Shown here piece by piece: positions 8,898-18,383 of a stretch of DNA of 64,000 nucleotides. Location: contig SVAL01000007.1 of the NCBI GenBank assembly GCA_015059405.1, positions 1-64,000 of the forward strand. Reading direction: 5' to 3'. The first letter of the stretch is position 1. Each line of letters starts with the position of its first letter. Both the position numbers and the translations under genes were made by a program. This DNA comes from Bacillota bacterium (GTDB lineage: Bacteria > Bacillota_I > Bacilli_A > RF39 > UBA660). Below the pieces are notes generated by a model that was not told the DNA's origin, ran no database searches, and was given only the letters and a program-made list of their open reading frames with translations.

Positions 8898-9245
8898 TTA
8901 TTTTTGTCCTCTTTCTTTAATTCTGTATTGACCAACAACATTTCTTAAGAAATTTAATTTAGCTCTTCTTACTTTACCTTTCTTAACAACTTCAATGTTA
9001 GCAATTTTTGGTGAATGCATTGGGAATATTCTTTCTACTCCTACACCATATGATACTTTTCTAACTGTAAATGTTTCAGAAACTCCTCCACCTTTACGAG
9101 CTATAACTGTTCCTTCGAACGCTTGAATTCTTTCTCTTTTTCCTTCGATGATTTTAACATCTACTCTTACTGTGTCCCCAACTCTGAATTCTGGTAAATT
9201 TGGGTTCATTTGTTTTTCTGTAATTTTATCGATTACATTTGCCAT
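8898..9245 (-). CDS. rplS: Ribosomal protein L19
   Basis: This 115-residue protein is the 50S subunit protein L19, located near the intersubunit bridge. Family blocks [42 protein letters not shown] and [10 protein letters not shown] are all present. The start has a GGAGAGAG ribosome binding site. In most Bacillota rplS follows trmD directly; here a ten-gene array separates them and rplS has its own consensus promoter (9311-9339) and a hairpin leader. Confidence 0.97.
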
Positions 9246-9282
9246 GATATCTCTCTCCTTTTCTATTTCAAATGATCATAAA

Positions 9283-9304
9283 CAATACATCCAGCGGATC
9301 ACTG
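9283..9304 (-). promoter_or_regulatory. Candidate L19 leader hairpin (autoregulatory element)
   Basis: At the very 5' end of the predicted rplS transcript, CAGTG-ATCC pairs with GGAT-G-TATTG around a GCT loop with one bulged G. Ribosomal protein leaders upstream of rplS are known in low-GC Gram-positives (the L19 leader family). I cannot align this to the family model here, so it is a candidate only. Confidence 0.45.
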
Positions 9305-9310
9305 CATTTA

Positions 9311-9339
9311 ATTATAGCATAATAGTTTTTCTAATGCAA
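9311..9339 (-). promoter_or_regulatory. Sigma-A promoter of rplS
   Basis: On the minus strand TTGCAT (9339-9334), a 17-base spacer ending in TGC, then perfect TATAAT (9316-9311). The -35 lies within an 8-bp inverted repeat (TAATAGTT / AACTATTA) just after the stop of the last array gene. It gives rplS expression independent of the array. Confidence 0.85.
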
Positions 9340-9342
9340 CTA

Positions 9343-9924
9343 TTATTTTCTCTTTACTTTTGCAGGTTCTTTTTTGCCTACAATACTTACGTTTTCAGAA
9401 GTTAAAATCTTTAAAGATACTGGTCCAATTGTTACTCTTCCTACATTTTTACCATTTTCGCTTGTTATTTCTAATGCTGGTTTATTATTAGTTTCTGGCA
9501 TTTCTACTTCAATTATTGCTTCTTTAGTATACTTATTAAAAAGATTTTGAATTTTTGACATACCTTGTGTTTTATTTCTTTGGTTTTCGCTTACTGTTTC
9601 AAAAACAGATTTTCTTACCTTTTCATAGATTCTTAAAAATTCAAATACTAGTGTATAATCTTTTATTGGACATATCTTTTGTTTTCCTCTAGAACTTATT
9701 TTATCTAAATTCATATACCAATCACTATAATGTAGTGATACATACATTTCTTTTTTATTTATTACTAATGAATATGTGTTTCTGTTTCCGTTTTCTGTTA
9801 CAGTAAATTCTGTACTGATTTTAGTTAAATCGGAAACATTATACAAACTTCTTAAGTCTTCTATTATAACTTTATATGTTTTATTTAATTGTTCTTTTTC
9901 TTCTTGTGAAAATATTATTCCCAT
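9343..9924 (-). CDS. Array paralog 10 (last gene), 193 aa, unknown function
   Basis: This gene ends the array. The N-terminal helix is FSQEEKEQLNKTYKVIIEDLRSLY; the middle helix carries YEKVRKSVFETV near residue 105; the C-terminal module begins at EAIIEVEMPETNNKP near residue 135 and continues ENGKNVGRVTIG and VSLKILTSENVSIV. It ends in a basic KVKRK tail. The module is the most divergent at its end, where the usual ITKG turn is LTSEN. It is separated by 2 bases from the previous gene and followed directly by the rplS promoter with no clear terminator. Confidence 0.8.
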   Translation of the reverse strand: MGIIFSQEEKEQLNKTYKVIIEDLRSLYNVSDLTKISTEFTVTENGNRNTYSLVINKKEMYVSLHYSDWYMNLDKISSRGKQKICPIKDYTLVFEFLRIYEKVRKSVFETVSENQRNKTQGMSKIQNLFNKYTKEAIIEVEMPETNNKPALEITSENGKNVGRVTIGPVSLKILTSENVSIVGKKEPAKVKRK

Positions 9925-9926
9925 AT

Positions 9927-10532
9927 TTATTTCCTCTTTATCTTTTCATTTTTATTTTTATTTTTAAATTCAATACTTGCATCAGTTATAATTCTTAATG
10001 ATATTCCACCAAAAGATAATGTACCTATTTTTTGACCATTTTCTTCTGTTACTTCAATAGTATGTTTATTTATAGTTTCAGGTAGTTCTATTTCTATAGT
10101 AGCTTCTTTTTTATATTTATTAATAAGTCTTTGAGCACTTTCTATATTACCAGCTCTATTTTCAATAGCGCTTTCTATCTTTTTTACAATATTTTCTCTT
10201 ATTTTCTCATAATTATTTAAAAAGATAATATCTTGTTCATTTATGGTTAAAAACTTTTTTAATTTTCCTATTGGTTTTCTTCGCGCAAAATGATATGTAC
10301 GATAATTCTCATCATCACCTTGTTTTAAATATATACCTGTTTTATCAATTATTAAATACCAACTATGTAAGGTATAGTTGTCTTCACATTTAGAAAAACC
10401 TGGTAAAGGTGCTTGGACATATATTTTTTCTAGTACCCCTATTTGATAGAAAGATTCTAAATCATCAATAACAGTACTTAAAGCTTCTTCTAGTACTTTA
10501 AGATTGTTACTTGTATATTTTACTTCGTCCAT
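9927..10532 (-). CDS. Array paralog 9, 201 aa, unknown function
   Basis: The layout matches the family: N-terminal helix ending STVIDDLESFY, a predicted beta segment HSWYLIIDKTGIYLK near residue 60, the YEKIRENIVKKI helix near residue 107, and the C-terminal module EATIEIELPETINKHTIEV, EENGQKIGTLSFG, LRIITDASIEF. The tail is Lys-rich and ends KIKRK, like the last array gene. The two are the most similar in their tails, which suggests a recent duplication or a shared constraint. No signal peptide or membrane segment is seen. Confidence 0.8.
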   Translation of the reverse strand: MDEVKYTSNNLKVLEEALSTVIDDLESFYQIGVLEKIYVQAPLPGFSKCEDNYTLHSWYLIIDKTGIYLKQGDDENYRTYHFARRKPIGKLKKFLTINEQDIIFLNNYEKIRENIVKKIESAIENRAGNIESAQRLINKYKKEATIEIELPETINKHTIEVTEENGQKIGTLSFGGISLRIITDASIEFKNKNKNEKIKRK

Positions 10533-10541
10533 ATTATCACC

Positions 10542-11141
10542 TTATTTCTTTTTAGTTTTTGCTTTTTCTTCTTTATTAACTAGAGTTATTTCTCCTTTTG
10601 TTATTATTTTTATTGTTTGAAGTCCAAAATTAATAGTTCCTATCTTTTTTCCATCTTCTTCAGTTATTTCAATTGTTTGACGATTAGTTGTATCTCCTAA
10701 ATCTATTTCTATAGTTGATGTTTTATTAAATTGTTCTTTTAATCTAGCAAATAACAGATCAGTATCTTTTTTTATTGCATCACTGCTAGAAAGTCTTTTA
10801 ATTAATTTATTTCTTATATCTTCATAGTTTTTTATGAAATTAAACATTATATCTTGGTTTATTTCTTCATCTTTTATTAAAACTGTCTTTTTAAAACGAG
10901 TTTTTGCGCGAGCTAATGTGCAAGAAGTTGAATGAGAATATCCTATGTTACAAATTAATCTTATATCTTGATCATCTATTCTAAATGACCATTTTTTAGT
11001 TTTATCATCTTCAAAATATATTGGAATATATACGCTTTTTAAAGCTGATGTTTGCCATATTTCCCATAAGTCATCTAGGGCTTTATTATATAATTCTAGT
11101 AAATCTTTTTGTTGTTTGTTAGTTAATTTGATGTTTGACAT
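10542..11141 (-). CDS. Array paralog 8, 199 aa, unknown function
   Basis: The start is placed at the ATG 11141 (MSNIKLTNKQ) because AAAAAGGAAAAAG lies just upstream; the longest frame would start at 11171 inside the previous gene. It overlaps the end of the previous gene by 23 bases. Family features are the LDDLWEIW helix, WSFRIDDQDIRL strand pair, YEDIRNKLIKRL helix, and the C-terminal module STIEIDLGDTTNRQTIEI, EEDGKKIGTINFG, TIKIITKGEITLV. The tail is KAKTKKK. Confidence 0.8.
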   Translation of the reverse strand: MSNIKLTNKQQKDLLELYNKALDDLWEIWQTSALKSVYIPIYFEDDKTKKWSFRIDDQDIRLICNIGYSHSTSCTLARAKTRFKKTVLIKDEEINQDIMFNFIKNYEDIRNKLIKRLSSSDAIKKDTDLLFARLKEQFNKTSTIEIDLGDTTNRQTIEITEEDGKKIGTINFGLQTIKIITKGEITLVNKEEKAKTKKK

Positions 11142-11490
11142 AACTTTTTCCTTTTTCTTTAGTAGTTTCACTTATTAAAGTTTCTTTTATATTTGGATAT
11201 TCTTTTAGTAGTTCTTTACATAGATTTATATCTTCTATTACTGCTCTTGGTTCTTTTTTTATATTACTTATTTCTAATATAACTAATTTAGCGCACTTTT
11301 TAGTTAAACTCTTCAAATATATTCCTTGTCTTGTAATACTTAATGTCCATCCATTTTCACAATGATAATCATTAGTTCCATATACTTGTGTAGGTATTTC
11401 TATTCTTGATTTTTTTGATTCTTGCAAATGCGTTCTTAAATCATTTAACATATTTGCATAATCAAATTCAAAGTTTTTATCTTGTTGCAT
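11119..11490 (-). CDS. Array paralog 7, truncated (123 aa, no C-terminal module)
   Basis: This copy keeps the N-terminal part (YANMLNDLRTHLQ helix, WTLSITRQGIYLK strand pair near residue 49) and a helix resembling the YE.IR region (YPNIKETLI), but stops there. The conserved C-terminal beta module and basic tail are missing. It overlaps the previous gene by 14 bases and the next by 23 bases, so the region has been compacted, perhaps by a deletion. It may be a single-domain variant or a decaying copy. Confidence 0.65.
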   Translation of the reverse strand: MQQDKNFEFDYANMLNDLRTHLQESKKSRIEIPTQVYGTNDYHCENGWTLSITRQGIYLKSLTKKCAKLVILEISNIKKEPRAVIEDINLCKELLKEYPNIKETLISETTKEKGKSYVKHQIN

Positions 11491-12109
11491 GTTTTCTCTT
11501 TCTTATAGTTCTTTTTACTTTAGAAATTTGTTTTGGTGCTTCTTCTATAGTTTTTGTTTTTTCTACTAAAACTATATCTCCTGTTGTTACAATTTTAATT
11601 GTTCTGCTACCAAAATTAATTATACCTACTTTTTTACCATTTTCTTCTTGTACTTCAATCGTATGTTTATTATTAGTTTCTGGGAAATCTATTTCTATTT
11701 CTGCATCTTTGTTATACTTTTGATTTATTTCTTCTATAGCAGAAAAACCAAGTCCTTTTTTTCTTAATCCTTTTTTTATTTCTTTTACTATTATTCCTCT
11801 TATATCTTCATAATGCTCAATAAAAGTCAATGTAAGTTCATAGTCGGATGGAATTCGATTTATTATTTTTCCTGCTTTAGTTTCTAAGTTATATTTAGTT
11901 GTTGTATCCCAATTTGGACGATGTATGGAAATTTTATTATTTGTAATATATAAATAGTATTGTACATTAGCATCAATATATTTTCCTATTTCTAAATATA
12001 TTTTATCAGTTTCTGCTGTTTTCCATAATTCTCTTATATCATCTAATACATAACCTAAAGACTCTCTTATTTTATCTTTTTCTTCTCTACTAAAAATAAT
12101 ATTTCCCAT
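11477..12109 (-). CDS. Array paralog 6, 210 aa, unknown function
   Basis: This is one of the most typical copies. The N-terminal helix is FSREEKDKIRESLGYVLDDIRELW, then QYYLYITNNKISIHRPNW, the YEDIRGIIVKEI helix near residue 107, and the C-terminal module DAEIEIDFPETNNKHTIEV, EENGKKVGIINFG, TIKIVTTGDIVLV. It has a longer basic tail of about 30 residues ending KVKRTIRKRKHATR. Its last codons overlap the start of the truncated copy. Confidence 0.8.
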   Translation of the reverse strand: MGNIIFSREEKDKIRESLGYVLDDIRELWKTAETDKIYLEIGKYIDANVQYYLYITNNKISIHRPNWDTTTKYNLETKAGKIINRIPSDYELTLTFIEHYEDIRGIIVKEIKKGLRKKGLGFSAIEEINQKYNKDAEIEIDFPETNNKHTIEVQEENGKKVGIINFGSRTIKIVTTGDIVLVEKTKTIEEAPKQISKVKRTIRKRKHATR

Positions 12110-12122
12110 ACTCTCACCTTCT

Positions 12123-12731
12123 TTATACTAACTTCTTTTCTTTTACGGGTTGTTTTGTTTCCTTTTCTAATAAAATAGTTCCTCTTGTAATAATTCTTAA
12201 TGTCCCGTTACCTAATTTTATTTCGCCTATTGCTTTACCATTTTCTTCTAAAACCTCTATACCATGTTTATTCATAGTTGCAGGAATATCTATTTCTACA
12301 GTTGCTTCTTTTGCGTATTTTTGTTCTAGTTCTTCAAATAGATTCAATTCTGTTTCTTTTCTTGATCTACTTTCTTCTATTTCAGTTTTAATTTTAGGTC
12401 TTATGCTTTCATATTCTTTTAAAAGCATCACCATTAATAAATAATTATTAGTTCTTCTTTTCATACCAAATGGTTGTCTTTCTTCTAGTGTTACTTTTAT
12501 TAGATTACTTCTTCTAAAAGTATTTAAAAAATAAATTCCATTATCATTTAATAAAAGATACCAATCCCAATTTGGGTAATTACTATTTATCTTGCTTGCA
12601 TTATCTAGATGGATGTGTATGTTTATTTCTTTTGATTCACATAATTTCCATAATTCATCCAAATCATCTAAGACATTATGAAAAGCACGTTTTATTTGTT
12701 TTTTTTCTTTATTAGTGTATTTTATTTCCAT
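12123..12731 (-). CDS. Array paralog 5, 202 aa, unknown function
   Basis: Family features: N-terminal helix EKKQIKRAFHNVLDDLDELW, WDWYLLLNDNGIYFL near residue 56, YESIRPKIKTEI near residue 103, and the C-terminal module EATVEIDIPATMNKHGIEV, EENGKAIGEIKLG, LRIITRGTILLEK. The tail is short and basic (VKEKKLV). It is separated from its upstream neighbour by 4 bases, within normal operon spacing. Confidence 0.8.
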   Translation of the reverse strand: MEIKYTNKEKKQIKRAFHNVLDDLDELWKLCESKEINIHIHLDNASKINSNYPNWDWYLLLNDNGIYFLNTFRRSNLIKVTLEERQPFGMKRRTNNYLLMVMLLKEYESIRPKIKTEIEESRSRKETELNLFEELEQKYAKEATVEIDIPATMNKHGIEVLEENGKAIGEIKLGNGTLRIITRGTILLEKETKQPVKEKKLV

Positions 12732-12735
12732 ACTA

Positions 12736-13413
12736 TCACCCTTTTTTACTTATTCCTTTTTTTAATACTTTTACTAATTTCTTTTTTGGTTGTTTATGTG
12801 CTTGTTTCAATGTTGATACAAATCTTTGTATTTGTGATTTTCGTCCTTCTTCTAATATTGTTACTGCTTGCTTTATTTGTTTTTGTTTTTCTAATTCTAA
12901 AGTTTTGTCAATTAAAATAATACTACCATTTGAAATAATTTCAATTGTGCGATAACCAAAATCTATTACATTTACTTCTTCTTGTTCTTCTTTTTTTTCT
13001 TCTTTAGGAAGAAATGATATTACTTCATTTATTTCTTGTAAACCTACTTCTTTTTCTTTGGCAGCTTGTTTTAAAATATTATCAAATTCTTTTTTAATTT
13101 CAGCTAAATTTTCTAAGAAATATAATTTAAAAGTTGAAGATGGTGAAATCAAATCATAATACCAATCTTTCATCTTTTTAGCTTTATGTAGAGGTATTTC
13201 TTCATCCATCCAAACGTTTTTATTATTAAAGCGATCTAAACACCAAATAGCATCATCTGTAATAAATAAATTAAAACTTCCAAAATCTAATAATGTATCA
13301 CATCCAAAACAATGTATTGCAATTTCTTTGCGATGACTTGTTTTTAATTTTTCTTTTAACTCTTTAACTGCATTTATAAATTCTACATCTCTAATACTTA
13401 ATAAATCACTCAT
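12736..13413 (-). CDS. Array paralog 4, divergent (225 aa) with long basic tail
   Basis: This is the most divergent member. The N-terminus lacks the usual VLDDI..LW form (instead FINAVKELKEKLK). The SFNLFITDDAIWCL strand pair is recognisable. In the C-terminal part the TIEV..E.NGKKIG half is replaced by a Glu/Lys-rich linker, but EVNVIDFGYRTIEIISNGSIILIDK is kept. It ends with a tail of about 45 residues rich in Lys and Gln. It may have a changed role or binding partner. Confidence 0.75.
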   Translation of the reverse strand: MSDLLSIRDVEFINAVKELKEKLKTSHRKEIAIHCFGCDTLLDFGSFNLFITDDAIWCLDRFNNKNVWMDEEIPLHKAKKMKDWYYDLISPSSTFKLYFLENLAEIKKEFDNILKQAAKEKEVGLQEINEVISFLPKEEKKEEQEEVNVIDFGYRTIEIISNGSIILIDKTLELEKQKQIKQAVTILEEGRKSQIQRFVSTLKQAHKQPKKKLVKVLKKGISKKG

Positions 13414-13415
13414 AT

Positions 13416-14045
13416 TTATATCTTCTTTTGTGGTGCTTTGTTGTTATCTTTTAATATAATTTCACCATTAGTAACTAATTTAATTGTGTTGTTCCCAAAA
13501 CGCAATATACCAATAGTTTGACCTTCTTCTCTTGTTACTTCGATTGGTATTTGATTTTGTGTTTGAAACATTAACTCTATACTTGCAGTTTTTGAATATT
13601 CTTTTGATACATCATCTATATTTATTAATCCTTCGTTTTTGGATTCTATTTTTTTATTAATTGTTTCTATTAGTTTTTTTCTTGTGTAACTTTTATAATT
13701 TCTTACGAAGTCATAATATAAGTTTAAATCAATTTCTGGTTCTTTTTCTTTTTTTTGAAATAATTTTCTTTTCTTGGGTAAATCTTCTTTTTTTCTTAAC
13801 CAAGTTTCTTTTGGCGGTTGACCAATAACTCTATCATCTACTAATTTAATTCCTTGATCATTGACGATTAACTTTTTATCGTCTAAACCTAGACCGTATG
13901 TTATTTCGTAACCAAATATGTATACGCTTATTTCAGGTGTAGTACTTTTTACTTTTTCCCACAATTTTTCTATATCTTGTAAGACTAGTTCAAGTGCTTC
14001 TAAAACATTTTCTTTTTCTTCTTGGGTAAATCTTAAGTTACTCAT
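13416..14045 (-). CDS. Array paralog 3, 209 aa, unknown function
   Basis: Family features: N-terminal helix FTQEEKENVLEALELVLQDIEKLW, KLIVNDQGIKLV near residue 60, a very Lys-rich insert (KKEDLPKKRKLFQKKEKEP) near residues 85-105, the helix YKSYTRKKLIETI, and the C-terminal module ASIELMFQTQNQIPIEV, EEGQTIGILRFG, TIKLVTNGEIILK. It is 2 bases from its downstream neighbour and 15 bases from its upstream one. Confidence 0.8.
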   Translation of the reverse strand: MSNLRFTQEEKENVLEALELVLQDIEKLWEKVKSTTPEISVYIFGYEITYGLGLDDKKLIVNDQGIKLVDDRVIGQPPKETWLRKKEDLPKKRKLFQKKEKEPEIDLNLYYDFVRNYKSYTRKKLIETINKKIESKNEGLINIDDVSKEYSKTASIELMFQTQNQIPIEVTREEGQTIGILRFGNNTIKLVTNGEIILKDNNKAPQKKI

Positions 14046-14060
14046 ACTACTACCTCCTTT

Positions 14061-14732
14061 TTATTGTTTTATTTTTTGTTTAACTGGTTCTATTTGTGTT
14101 AAAACTATATCTCCTTCAGTAATTATTTTTACTAATCTATTACCAAAATCTATTGTTCCAATTTTTTTACCATCTTTTTCTTCTAATTCTATTTTTTGCA
14201 TATTTAGTGTTGTTGCTTGACCTAAATCTACATATACATCACTACCATATATAGTTCTAATTCGTTGTAATTTGGACATAATCTCATTTTTTTGGCTATG
14301 ACAAGTTTCAATATGAGAGATTATTCTATTTCTTATATTTTCATAATCAGCTAATAATCTTGCAATTATTTCTAAATCAAAATTATCTTCTAAATCGTTT
14401 CTTCTTTTGTATCGTTCTTCTTTTTTATTTTTACGACTACCACTTTCTACTGTTATTTCTCTTTCTAACAAAACATTCGTTTTATAAGAAAAGTTTGCAT
14501 CTCCATTAATAAATAGTTTTTTCCATTCTTCTTTATCTGTTTCTAAAGTTAAAAGTGCAATAGCTTTTGGACCAATACATAATAAATATTTATATTCATT
14601 ATCAATTTCTACTTCTATAAAAATATTTTCTTGTGGCGTTATTTCATATATCTTGTGTATATCATCTAAAACGACATTCAAAGTTTCTTTGATATATTTT
14701 TTTTCTTCTTCAGTAAATTTTAATTCTCTCAT
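14061..14732 (-). CDS. Array paralog 2, 223 aa, unknown function
   Basis: Family features: N-terminal helix FTEEEKKYIKETLNVVLDDIHKIY, YKYLLCIGPKAIALL, a charged insert of about 25 residues with many Lys/Arg/Glu near residues 95-120, YENIRNRIISHI near residue 135, and the C-terminal module DVYVDLGQATTLNMQKIEL, EKDGKKIGTIDFG, VKIITEGDIVLTQ. Size differences from other copies lie mostly in the middle insert, while both ends are conserved. Confidence 0.8.
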   Translation of the reverse strand: MRELKFTEEEKKYIKETLNVVLDDIHKIYEITPQENIFIEVEIDNEYKYLLCIGPKAIALLTLETDKEEWKKLFINGDANFSYKTNVLLEREITVESGSRKNKKEERYKRRNDLEDNFDLEIIARLLADYENIRNRIISHIETCHSQKNEIMSKLQRIRTIYGSDVYVDLGQATTLNMQKIELEEKDGKKIGTIDFGNRLVKIITEGDIVLTQIEPVKQKIKQ

Positions 14733-14744
14733 ATGATACCTCTT

Positions 14745-15338
14745 TTACTTTATCTTTTGTTTGTTTTTCGGTTTATTTACAATTCTTACGCCATCTGATG
14801 CTAGTAATGTTAGTGTTAATCCATTAAAGTTTAGTTTACCTATAGTTTTTCCGTTTTCTTCACTTACTTCTAATTCGTACTGATTATTTGAAGGTGGTAA
14901 ATCTATTTCTATTGTTGCTTTTTTAGTTTTCTTTTCTTTCATTTTCTTTTTATATTTATTTCTTGTACTATTCATTAAATCTACATTTTCTTGAATTTGT
15001 CTTAATTTTTTATTTACTATTTCTTCTATATTTTTTCTTATTAAATCATAGTTTTTTATAAAGTGATATTGGGCAAGATAATCATCGTTATCAATAATAA
15101 TATTTCTTCTTTGTCCTTTTGAAATTAGTGAATTACTTTCTTTATATTTTTCTCTTAAAATTATTTCTTTAGCTGTTATTTCTAAATACCAATTACTTCC
15201 ATAATTTCCTATTTCTTCTTGAAAAGCAAAGACTGTTATTTTTGATTCTGGATAATCTTTTACTAATTTTCTAATATCTTTTATTAATAATCTGATTGTA
15301 CTTCTAATTAGTCTCTTTTCCTTTGTTGTAAGAACCAT
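14745..15338 (-). CDS. Array paralog 1 (first gene), 197 aa, unknown function
   Basis: The first gene of the operon, 28 bases downstream of the -10 box with an AGAGGGTGAT ribosome binding site. Family features: helix TTKEKRLIRSTIRLLIKDIRKLV, NWYLEITAKEIILR near residue 48, YDLIRKNIEEIV near residue 97, and the C-terminal module KKATIEIDLPPSNNQYELEV, EENGKTIGKLNFNG, LTLLASDGVRIVNK. The tail is KNKQKIK. Like the last gene, it lacks the ITKG turn of the central copies. Confidence 0.8.
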   Translation of the reverse strand: MVLTTKEKRLIRSTIRLLIKDIRKLVKDYPESKITVFAFQEEIGNYGSNWYLEITAKEIILREKYKESNSLISKGQRRNIIIDNDDYLAQYHFIKNYDLIRKNIEEIVNKKLRQIQENVDLMNSTRNKYKKKMKEKKTKKATIEIDLPPSNNQYELEVSEENGKTIGKLNFNGLTLTLLASDGVRIVNKPKNKQKIK

Positions 15339-15365: not shown

Positions 15366-15394
15366 ATTATATATGATTTTCCTTATTTTTACAA
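15366..15394 (-). promoter_or_regulatory. Sigma-A promoter of the ten-gene array
   Basis: On the minus strand TTGTAA (15394-15389), 17-base spacer, perfect TATAAT (15371-15366). It lies between the terminator of the trmD-side operon (15400-15422) and the first array gene, so the array is an independent transcription unit. Confidence 0.8.
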
Positions 15395-15399
15395 TAAAA

Positions 15400-15422
15400 A
15401 AGAGTAGATTTTATCTACTCTT
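15400..15422 (-). terminator. Rho-independent terminator of the trmD-side operon
   Basis: A perfect 10-bp stem AAGAGTAGAT / ATCTACTCTT (3-base loop) followed by TTTTTTATTG on the minus strand. The stop of the 15411 gene lies inside it. It separates trmD expression from the array. Confidence 0.85.
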
Positions 15423-15866
15423 ACCTTCTTTAGCTATTTCTTCGTTTGCCGCTAGAAGATATTGCATTCTTAAATTAAGTTCATCTTCTAGAATTGCTAA
15501 CTTATTTTCTAATAATTCTAGTTTTTCATCACTAATATATTTTTTATATTTATTTATAATTTCCATACGGAATTTTTCTGCTTCATTGTGTGCAAGACGC
15601 AAACCTTCTCCTGTTGTATCATCATCTTCATAAATGATTGCTAAAAGATTTATTAAGTGATTAAATCTTTTTCTTGCTTTAATATCAACCATTTTTTCAA
15701 TTAATGATGGATTAATTAATACCATGCTTTTAACATTAATAGCATCTTGGAATTTAATATTATTTTTTGGTGTAATTTGATAACCATCAATTTTATCATA
15801 TTCCATATAAGTTATTTCTTTTGAATCCTTTGTTTTAACAACTAAAAATCTTTGATTTATAGGCAT
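15411..15866 (-). CDS. Conserved hypothetical protein, 151 aa
   Basis: I do not recognise this protein. It has a beta-rich N-terminal part (QRFLVVKTKDSKEITYMEYD) and a helical C-terminal half with many charged residues, probably coiled coil (LLENKLAILEDELNLRMQYLL). It shares no obvious module with the array proteins. The start at 15866 (MPINQRFL) is favoured because GGTGGA lies 5 bases upstream; an alternative ATG is at 15878. It is the last gene of the rimM-trmD unit, 10-22 bases after trmD. Confidence 0.6.
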   Translation of the reverse strand: MPINQRFLVVKTKDSKEITYMEYDKIDGYQITPKNNIKFQDAINVKSMVLINPSLIEKMVDIKARKRFNHLINLLAIIYEDDDTTGEGLRLAHNEAEKFRMEIINKYKKYISDEKLELLENKLAILEDELNLRMQYLLAANEEIAKEGKSR

Positions 15867-15888
15867 AACATCCACCATCTTTCACATT

Positions 15889-17804: not shown

Positions 17805-18383
17805 TTATATTTTTTTTACTTTAGCTTCTTTTTTATTTTTATTAAATACTTCTGTTGGATCTTTTTTAATATTAAATCCATCTACTATTTCATATTCAAT
17901 TATTTCATATGTTGGTTCTAGTCTGCCGATAGGACCATTTTTAATATCAAATCTTACTAATTTAGTAGGATCATAGGCTTTTTCATACATCCAGTTAATT
18001 GATGAAGATGCACAACTACATGAATGTATATTTTTCTTCATACTTTCAAAAGCAATAAAATTTAGCCCTTCATAAATATTAGAGAATAAACTAAATTCAT
18101 ATTCATCATTACCTACAACATGTTTTTGATATCCTTCTAAAATATAATGATCTTTATTTTCTGGTGATTTTTTTATATATATTTCTCCTTCAATATAATC
18201 ATCACATTTAAATAATTCGATTGCTTCTTCACTAATTTTCTTTAAAGCTTCCTCATCTTGAATAAAGAAAGTACTATCTTGTAGTAAATATGCTTGAATT
18301 CTTTTTGCTTCTTCTTTTGTTAGTCCTTCAAATTCAAAAGAAATTAGACTATTTTCACCATTATAATAATTAATATAACTCAT
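17805..18383 (-). CDS. Hypothetical protein, 192 aa
   Basis: I do not recognise it. It is a cytoplasmic, acidic protein with an unusual HSCSCASSSINWMYEKAYDPTKLVRFDIKNGPI-type central segment (Cys-Ser-Cys near residue 123) and a basic C-terminus (KNKKEAKVKKI). The paired Cys could bind metal, though only two are close together. It sits between the TrmH-type gene and the YgjP-like gene with 13- and 16-base gaps, so it belongs to the same transcription unit. AGGAGGT precedes the ATG. Confidence 0.55.
   Translation of the reverse strand: MSYINYYNGENSLISFEFEGLTKEEAKRIQAYLLQDSTFFIQDEEALKKISEEAIELFKCDDYIEGEIYIKKSPENKDHYILEGYQKHVVGNDEYEFSLFSNIYEGLNFIAFESMKKNIHSCSCASSSINWMYEKAYDPTKLVRFDIKNGPIGRLEPTYEIIEYEIVDGFNIKKDPTEVFNKNKKEAKVKKI

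Follow-up and report, generated by a model that had tools for sequence, protein, structure and literature searches.

In a 64,000-nucleotide stretch of DNA (hereafter the window; positions 1 to 64,000 of contig SVAL01000007.1, assembly GCA_015059405.1, from a Bacillota bacterium of the UBA660 lineage), ten adjacent open reading frames on the minus strand (9343–15338; g1–g10, numbered in the order of transcription) encode related small proteins. We tentatively interpret this array as encoding a repertoire of recognition proteins that are small, cytosolic and non-enzymatic, that would each combine a variable target-binding domain with a constant docking tail, and that are likely engaged in intracellular conflict; this is the interpretation that we prefer, while holding it a little short of probable. 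It builds on features that were computed directly, namely the two-part architecture of the proteins, the contrast in rate between the two parts, the turnover of copy number, the exchange of 3′ ends, the slots that the genes occupy and a J-domain protein that carries the same module.

Except for g7, the proteins match one another in BLASTP searches at about 20–37% identity, mostly over most of their lengths and with E values down to 1e-32, and the genes are true paralogs. Gaps of 2–15 bp separate them, g6 and g7 overlap by 14 bp and g7 and g8 by 23 bp, and the interior of the array consists exclusively of family members, with no toxin gene interrupting it. A preliminary description, made from the sequence alone, had reported these ten adjacent, tightly spaced and partly overlapping relatives, and the comparisons bore it out. 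The C-terminal module that it ascribed to the group is found in nine of the ten; g7 has the N-domain only, and g4 keeps of the module only a short strand motif. Chance open reading frames and an assembly artefact are excluded, because the frames are under selection (the ratio of nonsynonymous to synonymous divergence, dN/dS, is below 1 for the orthologs of two related species) and because five genomes have the family at the same site.

The structure of g5 predicted by AlphaFold2 (mean predicted local distance difference test score, pLDDT, of 85.8 for the whole protein) comprises a helix (residues 7–30), four strands (35–40, 57–62, 65–70 and 78–85), a long charged helix (97–140) and a C-terminal three-stranded meander (158–182). 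When the N-domain was modelled alone, its alpha-beta4-alpha fold was predicted with a pLDDT of 94.6 and a predicted template modelling score of 0.85. The smallest constant unit of the family, of about 22 residues, is beta-rich and reads [KT]IGTINFGxxTIKIITxGDIVLV; the short strand motif stands alone in g4 and is present in more than one copy in a double-domain protein of a relative, G002. Further downstream lie two lysine residues (K197 and K199 in g5 numbering); in the alignment of the family, at low overall identity, 48 of 55 members keep the first and 54 of 54 the second. No transmembrane stretch was predicted in 56 family members, and no array member matched an enzyme family. By these predictions the proteins would be cytosolic, globular and non-enzymatic.

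The genomes used for comparison, one per species, seem to be bins from metagenomes, and those of the named relatives are labelled as metagenome-assembled genomes; their records name goat rectum, sheep rumen and ‘Lapin’ (rabbit) metagenomes. The genome of the window (G000) is 78.6% complete, with 4.1% contamination. The loci of relatives were retrieved with a neighbouring gene, encoding a 155-residue protein, as bait, and dN and dS were obtained by simple pairwise counting.

The two parts of the proteins have diverged at different rates. Between the sister species G003 and G008, the pooled N-terminal parts had a dN of 0.158 and a dS of 0.388 (ratio 0.41) and the C-terminal parts 0.093 and 0.476 (ratio 0.20), and the residues differ by 37–48% in the longer loops of the N-domain and by 1% in the GxxTIKIIT strand. 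The array genes of these species, without the first of each array, had a dN of 0.160 and a dS of 0.471, as compared with 0.022 and 0.219 for the flanking genes; the N-domains diverge about sevenfold faster than the flanks. The first genes of the arrays (loci L043/L047 and L042/L045) resemble the flanks, with a dN of 0.036 and a dS of 0.189, and may either have a distinct role or have a recombination border behind them. All twelve ortholog pairs of G003 and G008 had dN/dS values below 1 (0.13–0.51). Between G000 and G007, a comparison in which dS values near 1 are uncertain, the colinear array proteins are 33–44% identical, TrmD 93% and the 155-residue protein 95%.

Recombination as well as duplication appears to have shaped the family. 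The doubled dS suggests that older alleles have been exchanged by recombination. DNA similarity between paralogs is detectable mostly at the 3′ end only, and two G002 paralogs that belong to different N-domain groups are 97.6% identical over their last 168 bp, which we regard as a sign of gene conversion. In a maximum-likelihood tree, the G003 and G008 genes form strict pairs and seven G002 genes represent a recent expansion, while one-to-one pairing of G000 with G007 is partial, the g2 and g9 groups being well supported and the others weakly. Gene order is largely conserved between species, and the reading frames are intact in more than 50 copies.

The family was detected in five of the nine genomes of the genus (G000, G002, G003, G007 and G008), with 9–15 genes in each. 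The slot between trmD and rplS contains ten plain copies in G000, nine in G007 and seven each in G003 and G008 (in the latter over two contigs), and none in G002, where a gene for a J-domain protein with the family module stands in place of the array. The slot is also found without an array, occupied by an unrelated gene for 625 residues in G005 (L053 10532–12409; an orphan without a Pfam match) or reduced to just 104 bp in G006. A second slot, from lysS to a transporter gene, contains seven copies in G002, seven in G003 and five in G008; it is empty in G000, G004, G005, G006 and G007, where the transporter gene comes directly after lysS. In G008, an orphan gene for 235 residues on the opposite strand (L045 6771–7478) closes the second array. 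Single family copies adjoin rplU, rny and a polymerase IV gene. On contig 7 of G002 (L038 1253–5402), three adjacent genes for 441–482 residues each consist of two diverged, fused family copies, and one of them contains an additional short strand motif. Gain or loss of the family is recent, because no copy was detected in G004 although the LysS proteins of G004 and G008 are 91% identical.

The copy numbers and the lineage-specific duplications in the tree uphold the locally expanded, diversifying family of the preliminary description; overall the species do not share a fixed one-to-one set of orthologs, though G003 and G008 share seven such pairs in the trmD–rplS slot. The lysS slot, the contrast between the fast N-domain and the near-invariant tail, the double-domain members and the J-domain fusion had not been described there.

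The J-domain gene of G002 (L041/L052 7011–7586) encodes a J-domain (Pfam DnaJ, E = 8e-26) followed by the C-terminal module of the family. As this fusion demonstrates, the module is portable, being kept here apart from its usual N-domain. The join is what would be expected of a targeting or docking part in a small J-domain co-chaperone; the ten proteins of the window, in contrast, lack a J-domain with an HPD motif, and the fusion is confined to G002, whereas an ordinary dnaJ is present in every genome of the genus.

No family in Pfam, PHROGs, NCBIfam, PADLOC or the PDB matched the array members consistently, in agreement with the preliminary description, which knew no family with such a layout. 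Stray weak matches of single members to Pfam, PHROGs, NCBIfam and PADLOC profiles, two of them to PHROGs at E values of 2e-4 and 0.0042, were dismissed as chance, since the members disagree. Foldseek searches of the PDB with the whole g5 model and the N-domain model returned nothing with an E value below 0.36, in a fold library without predicted cellular proteins, so that folds known from predictions alone would be missed. The best VIA-align match of the N-domain, YkuJ (Z = 3.7 over 73 residues, rmsd 4.6), is not convincing as a fold match. Phages, viral contigs and plasmids contained no homolog, and an origin of the family from phages or plasmids was rejected on that ground. Whole-genome searches found the family in none of 50 other relatives, and when 395 genomes from across the class were sampled, the matches were confined to members of the genus, leaving about 390 others without it. 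When 291 genomes of the bacterial family were searched with the C-terminal module, two matches appeared beside those in genus members, in G075 and G191; both were rejected as chance (E values of 6e-4 and 0.009 over 23–24 positions), the G191 match containing a stop and the G075 match lying antisense to a longer open reading frame. The family is previously undescribed and, among the sampled genomes, restricted to uncultured gut Bacilli of a single genus.

Tandem copies with a variable front and a constant tail are the expected look of a repertoire with a shared docking partner. In such a repertoire, each fast-evolving alpha-beta4-alpha domain would bind a target of its own; a long helix follows, and then the near-constant strand motif and K-x-K tail, by which all members would attach either to one another or to a single cellular partner common to them. 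The role would likely be to neutralise varying foreign proteins, such as toxins and the products of phages or mobile elements, or to recruit against them. The genes would be transcribed independently, from slots that separate housekeeping operons, and the family would expand by tandem duplication, with C-terminal ends exchanged by recombination. We infer that the N-domain binds targets, that the tail has a common partner and that the proteins act in conflict; rapid protein change, doubled synonymous divergence and turnover of presence and absence point to conflict rather than to housekeeping.

Several observations weigh against this interpretation. No toxin, phage or mobile-element gene was recognised in the vicinity of the array, and none of the nine genomes of the genus has an LXG toxin. 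The pooled dN/dS is below 1 in both parts of the proteins (0.41 and 0.20), so that positive selection is not demonstrated, and the retention of the same seven trmD–rplS copies by G003 and G008 means that turnover is not extreme. Ordinary immunity proteins need no constant tail, and the C-terminal fold was predicted at moderate confidence (pLDDT of about 70–80).

Among the functions offered in the preliminary description, an immunity-type array fits the layout best. Polyimmunity loci consist of tandem, closely spaced, distantly related paralogs on the same strand that encode cytosolic proteins, have no toxins between them and include multi-domain versions (Zhang et al., 2012; PMC3482391), and we did not find this layout described in the literature outside such loci. 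The array resembles homogeneous polyimmunity loci in each of these respects, and in that the number of copies varies by species. It differs from them in that it is confined to one genus, fills two slots in the genomes of two species but a single slot in others, lies between housekeeping operons with no recognised recombinases, and has in all paralogs a near-invariant motif and K-x-K tail, the motif being found on a J-domain protein as well. Because no immunity family or toxin is tied to the array, and because it has the constant tail in addition, we do not class it as a homogeneous polyimmunity locus. If it were one, each protein would neutralise one competitor toxin and the C-terminal motif would be part of the immunity fold. 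The layout and a match of g3 to Imm44 (E = 0.0075) speak for this, but it seems unlikely: that match is below the cut-off, no array member matches an Imm family above it, and a search of 392 genomes of the phylum for Imm44 relatives gave three sub-threshold matches, none of them clear. The shared tail, moreover, is far more conserved than expected of a toxin-binding surface. Toxin searches covered LXG and WXG100; competition of the LXG type was rejected, and WXG100 proteins are absent from G000, G003, G007 and G008, with a sub-threshold match in G002.

The proteins could instead be regulators associated with nucleic acids or the ribosome and co-expressed with translation genes, as the RNA-binding regulators of the preliminary description would be. 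What speaks for this is basic charge (the median isoelectric point is 8.5 for the family and 5.4 for other proteins of the window, and K-x-K occurs among the last eight residues of 79% and 20%, respectively) and the location of family sites next to rplS, lysS and rplU. We regard it as distinctly improbable, since no RNA- or DNA-binding fold was recognised, the array has a promoter-like site of its own and lies between rather than inside translation operons, other copies adjoin rny and a polymerase IV gene, and divergence so much faster than that of the neighbours is not expected of regulators.

Just as improbable, in our estimate, is a weakly constrained tandem family that multiplies by unequal crossing-over in neutral slots and has little function as a repertoire. 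Its absence from close relatives such as G004, the slots that hold other genes or nothing and the truncated copy g7 would all suit that explanation, but the twelve ortholog pairs, none of which reaches a dN/dS of 1, the near-invariant motif and tail, the intact frames and the largely conserved gene order argue against it.

Least probable is a self-assembling scaffold in which the C-terminal motif polymerises the members by beta-stacking and the J-domain version recruits Hsp70: the small beta-rich unit, alone in g4 and repeated in the G002 double-domain protein, the long charged helix before it and the existence of the J-domain fusion would accord with it, but AlphaFold2 gives an ordinary three-stranded meander, rapid divergence of the N-domain would be unnecessary, and the adjacent NLR or Bell partner that is the hallmark of bacterial amyloid signalling motifs (BASS; PMC8086366) was not seen. 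In BASS, the partner NLR protein carries the motif at its N-terminus, and the adjacent NLR or Bell partner defines the class (PMC8086366). The present family likewise has a short (about 20–40 residues), beta-prone C-terminal motif on otherwise different proteins; however, the gene maps contain no NLR neighbour with a matching N-terminal motif, and in the nine genomes of the genus the module is limited to the family and the J-domain fusion.

The individual genes, all on the minus strand, are as follows. The first, g1 (14745–15338; 197 residues), has the C-terminal module and the K-x-K tail; g2 (14061–14732; 223 residues) forms the best-supported ortholog pair, with copy 2 of G007; and g3 (13416–14045; 209 residues) is the member with the Imm44 match. 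The divergent g4 (12736–13413; 225 residues) has a long lysine-rich extension. After the structurally modelled g5 (12123–12731; 202 residues) and g6 (11477–12109; 210 residues) comes the truncated g7 (11119–11490; 123 residues), overlapping both g6 and g8. For g8 (10542–11141; 199 residues) the ATG at 11141 is the most likely start. The array closes with g9 (9927–10532; 201 residues) and g10 (9343–9924; 193 residues).

The location between trmD and rplS given in the preliminary description is correct, with the addition that trmD is separated from the array by the gene for the 155-residue protein and by a terminator. This genus-specific gene (15411–15878, minus strand), downstream of trmD, forms the left-hand border of the slot. 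Its product is 88–95% identical among array-bearing relatives, and its homology to the array family was rejected (hhalign probability of 0.1%). A hairpin of 10 pairs with a loop of 3, followed by a T run, resembles an intrinsic terminator at the end of the trmD operon (15400–15422, minus strand), upstream of the array; the upstream unit likewise ends T-rich in relatives. The promoter that had been proposed for the whole array corresponds to a promoter-like site (TTGTAA-17-TATAAT; 15366–15394, minus strand) that has a similar counterpart in the same place in G007, G003, G008 and G002, although the array site alone is weak evidence, as 41 promoter-like sites were found and 49.5 were expected in shuffles. 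At the right-hand border, a conserved rplS promoter (TTGCAT-17-TATAAT with TG) and leader (AGTGATCCGCTGGA...TTTATGATCA; 9246–9334, minus strand) are closely similar in array-bearing and array-free relatives and precede rplS, which encodes bL19 (8898–9245, minus strand). The leader was rejected as a known RNA, because Rfam gave no match. With the terminator and promoter-like site upstream and the rplS promoter and leader immediately downstream, the array appears to be transcribed independently of the two housekeeping units whose intervening slot it occupies. Elsewhere near the array, a fast-evolving gene (17805–18383, minus strand) encodes a 192-residue protein that has no Pfam family and a lysine-rich end, KEAKVKKI; it is 42% identical to its G007 counterpart, as against 85–93% for the neighbouring genes.

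A family without recognised relatives thus accounts for 9–15 detected genes in genomes of 1.2–1.7 Mb of uncultured gut Bacilli, and joins a polyimmunity-like layout to a constant docking tail. The two conserved slots allow the arrays to be genotyped in herbivore gut metagenomes. The tail offers a direct experimental handle: if a pull-down with the motif identified the common partner, what every member does might become clear. In a bolder version of the repertoire, which we consider quite unlikely, the proteins would be variable sensors or adaptors with a universal C-terminal plug that fits a common machine or each other; the J-domain version would lead to Hsp70, and foreign proteins would be captured and handed to one pathway. 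Such a plug system, if true, would be a previously undescribed bacterial system of intracellular recognition.

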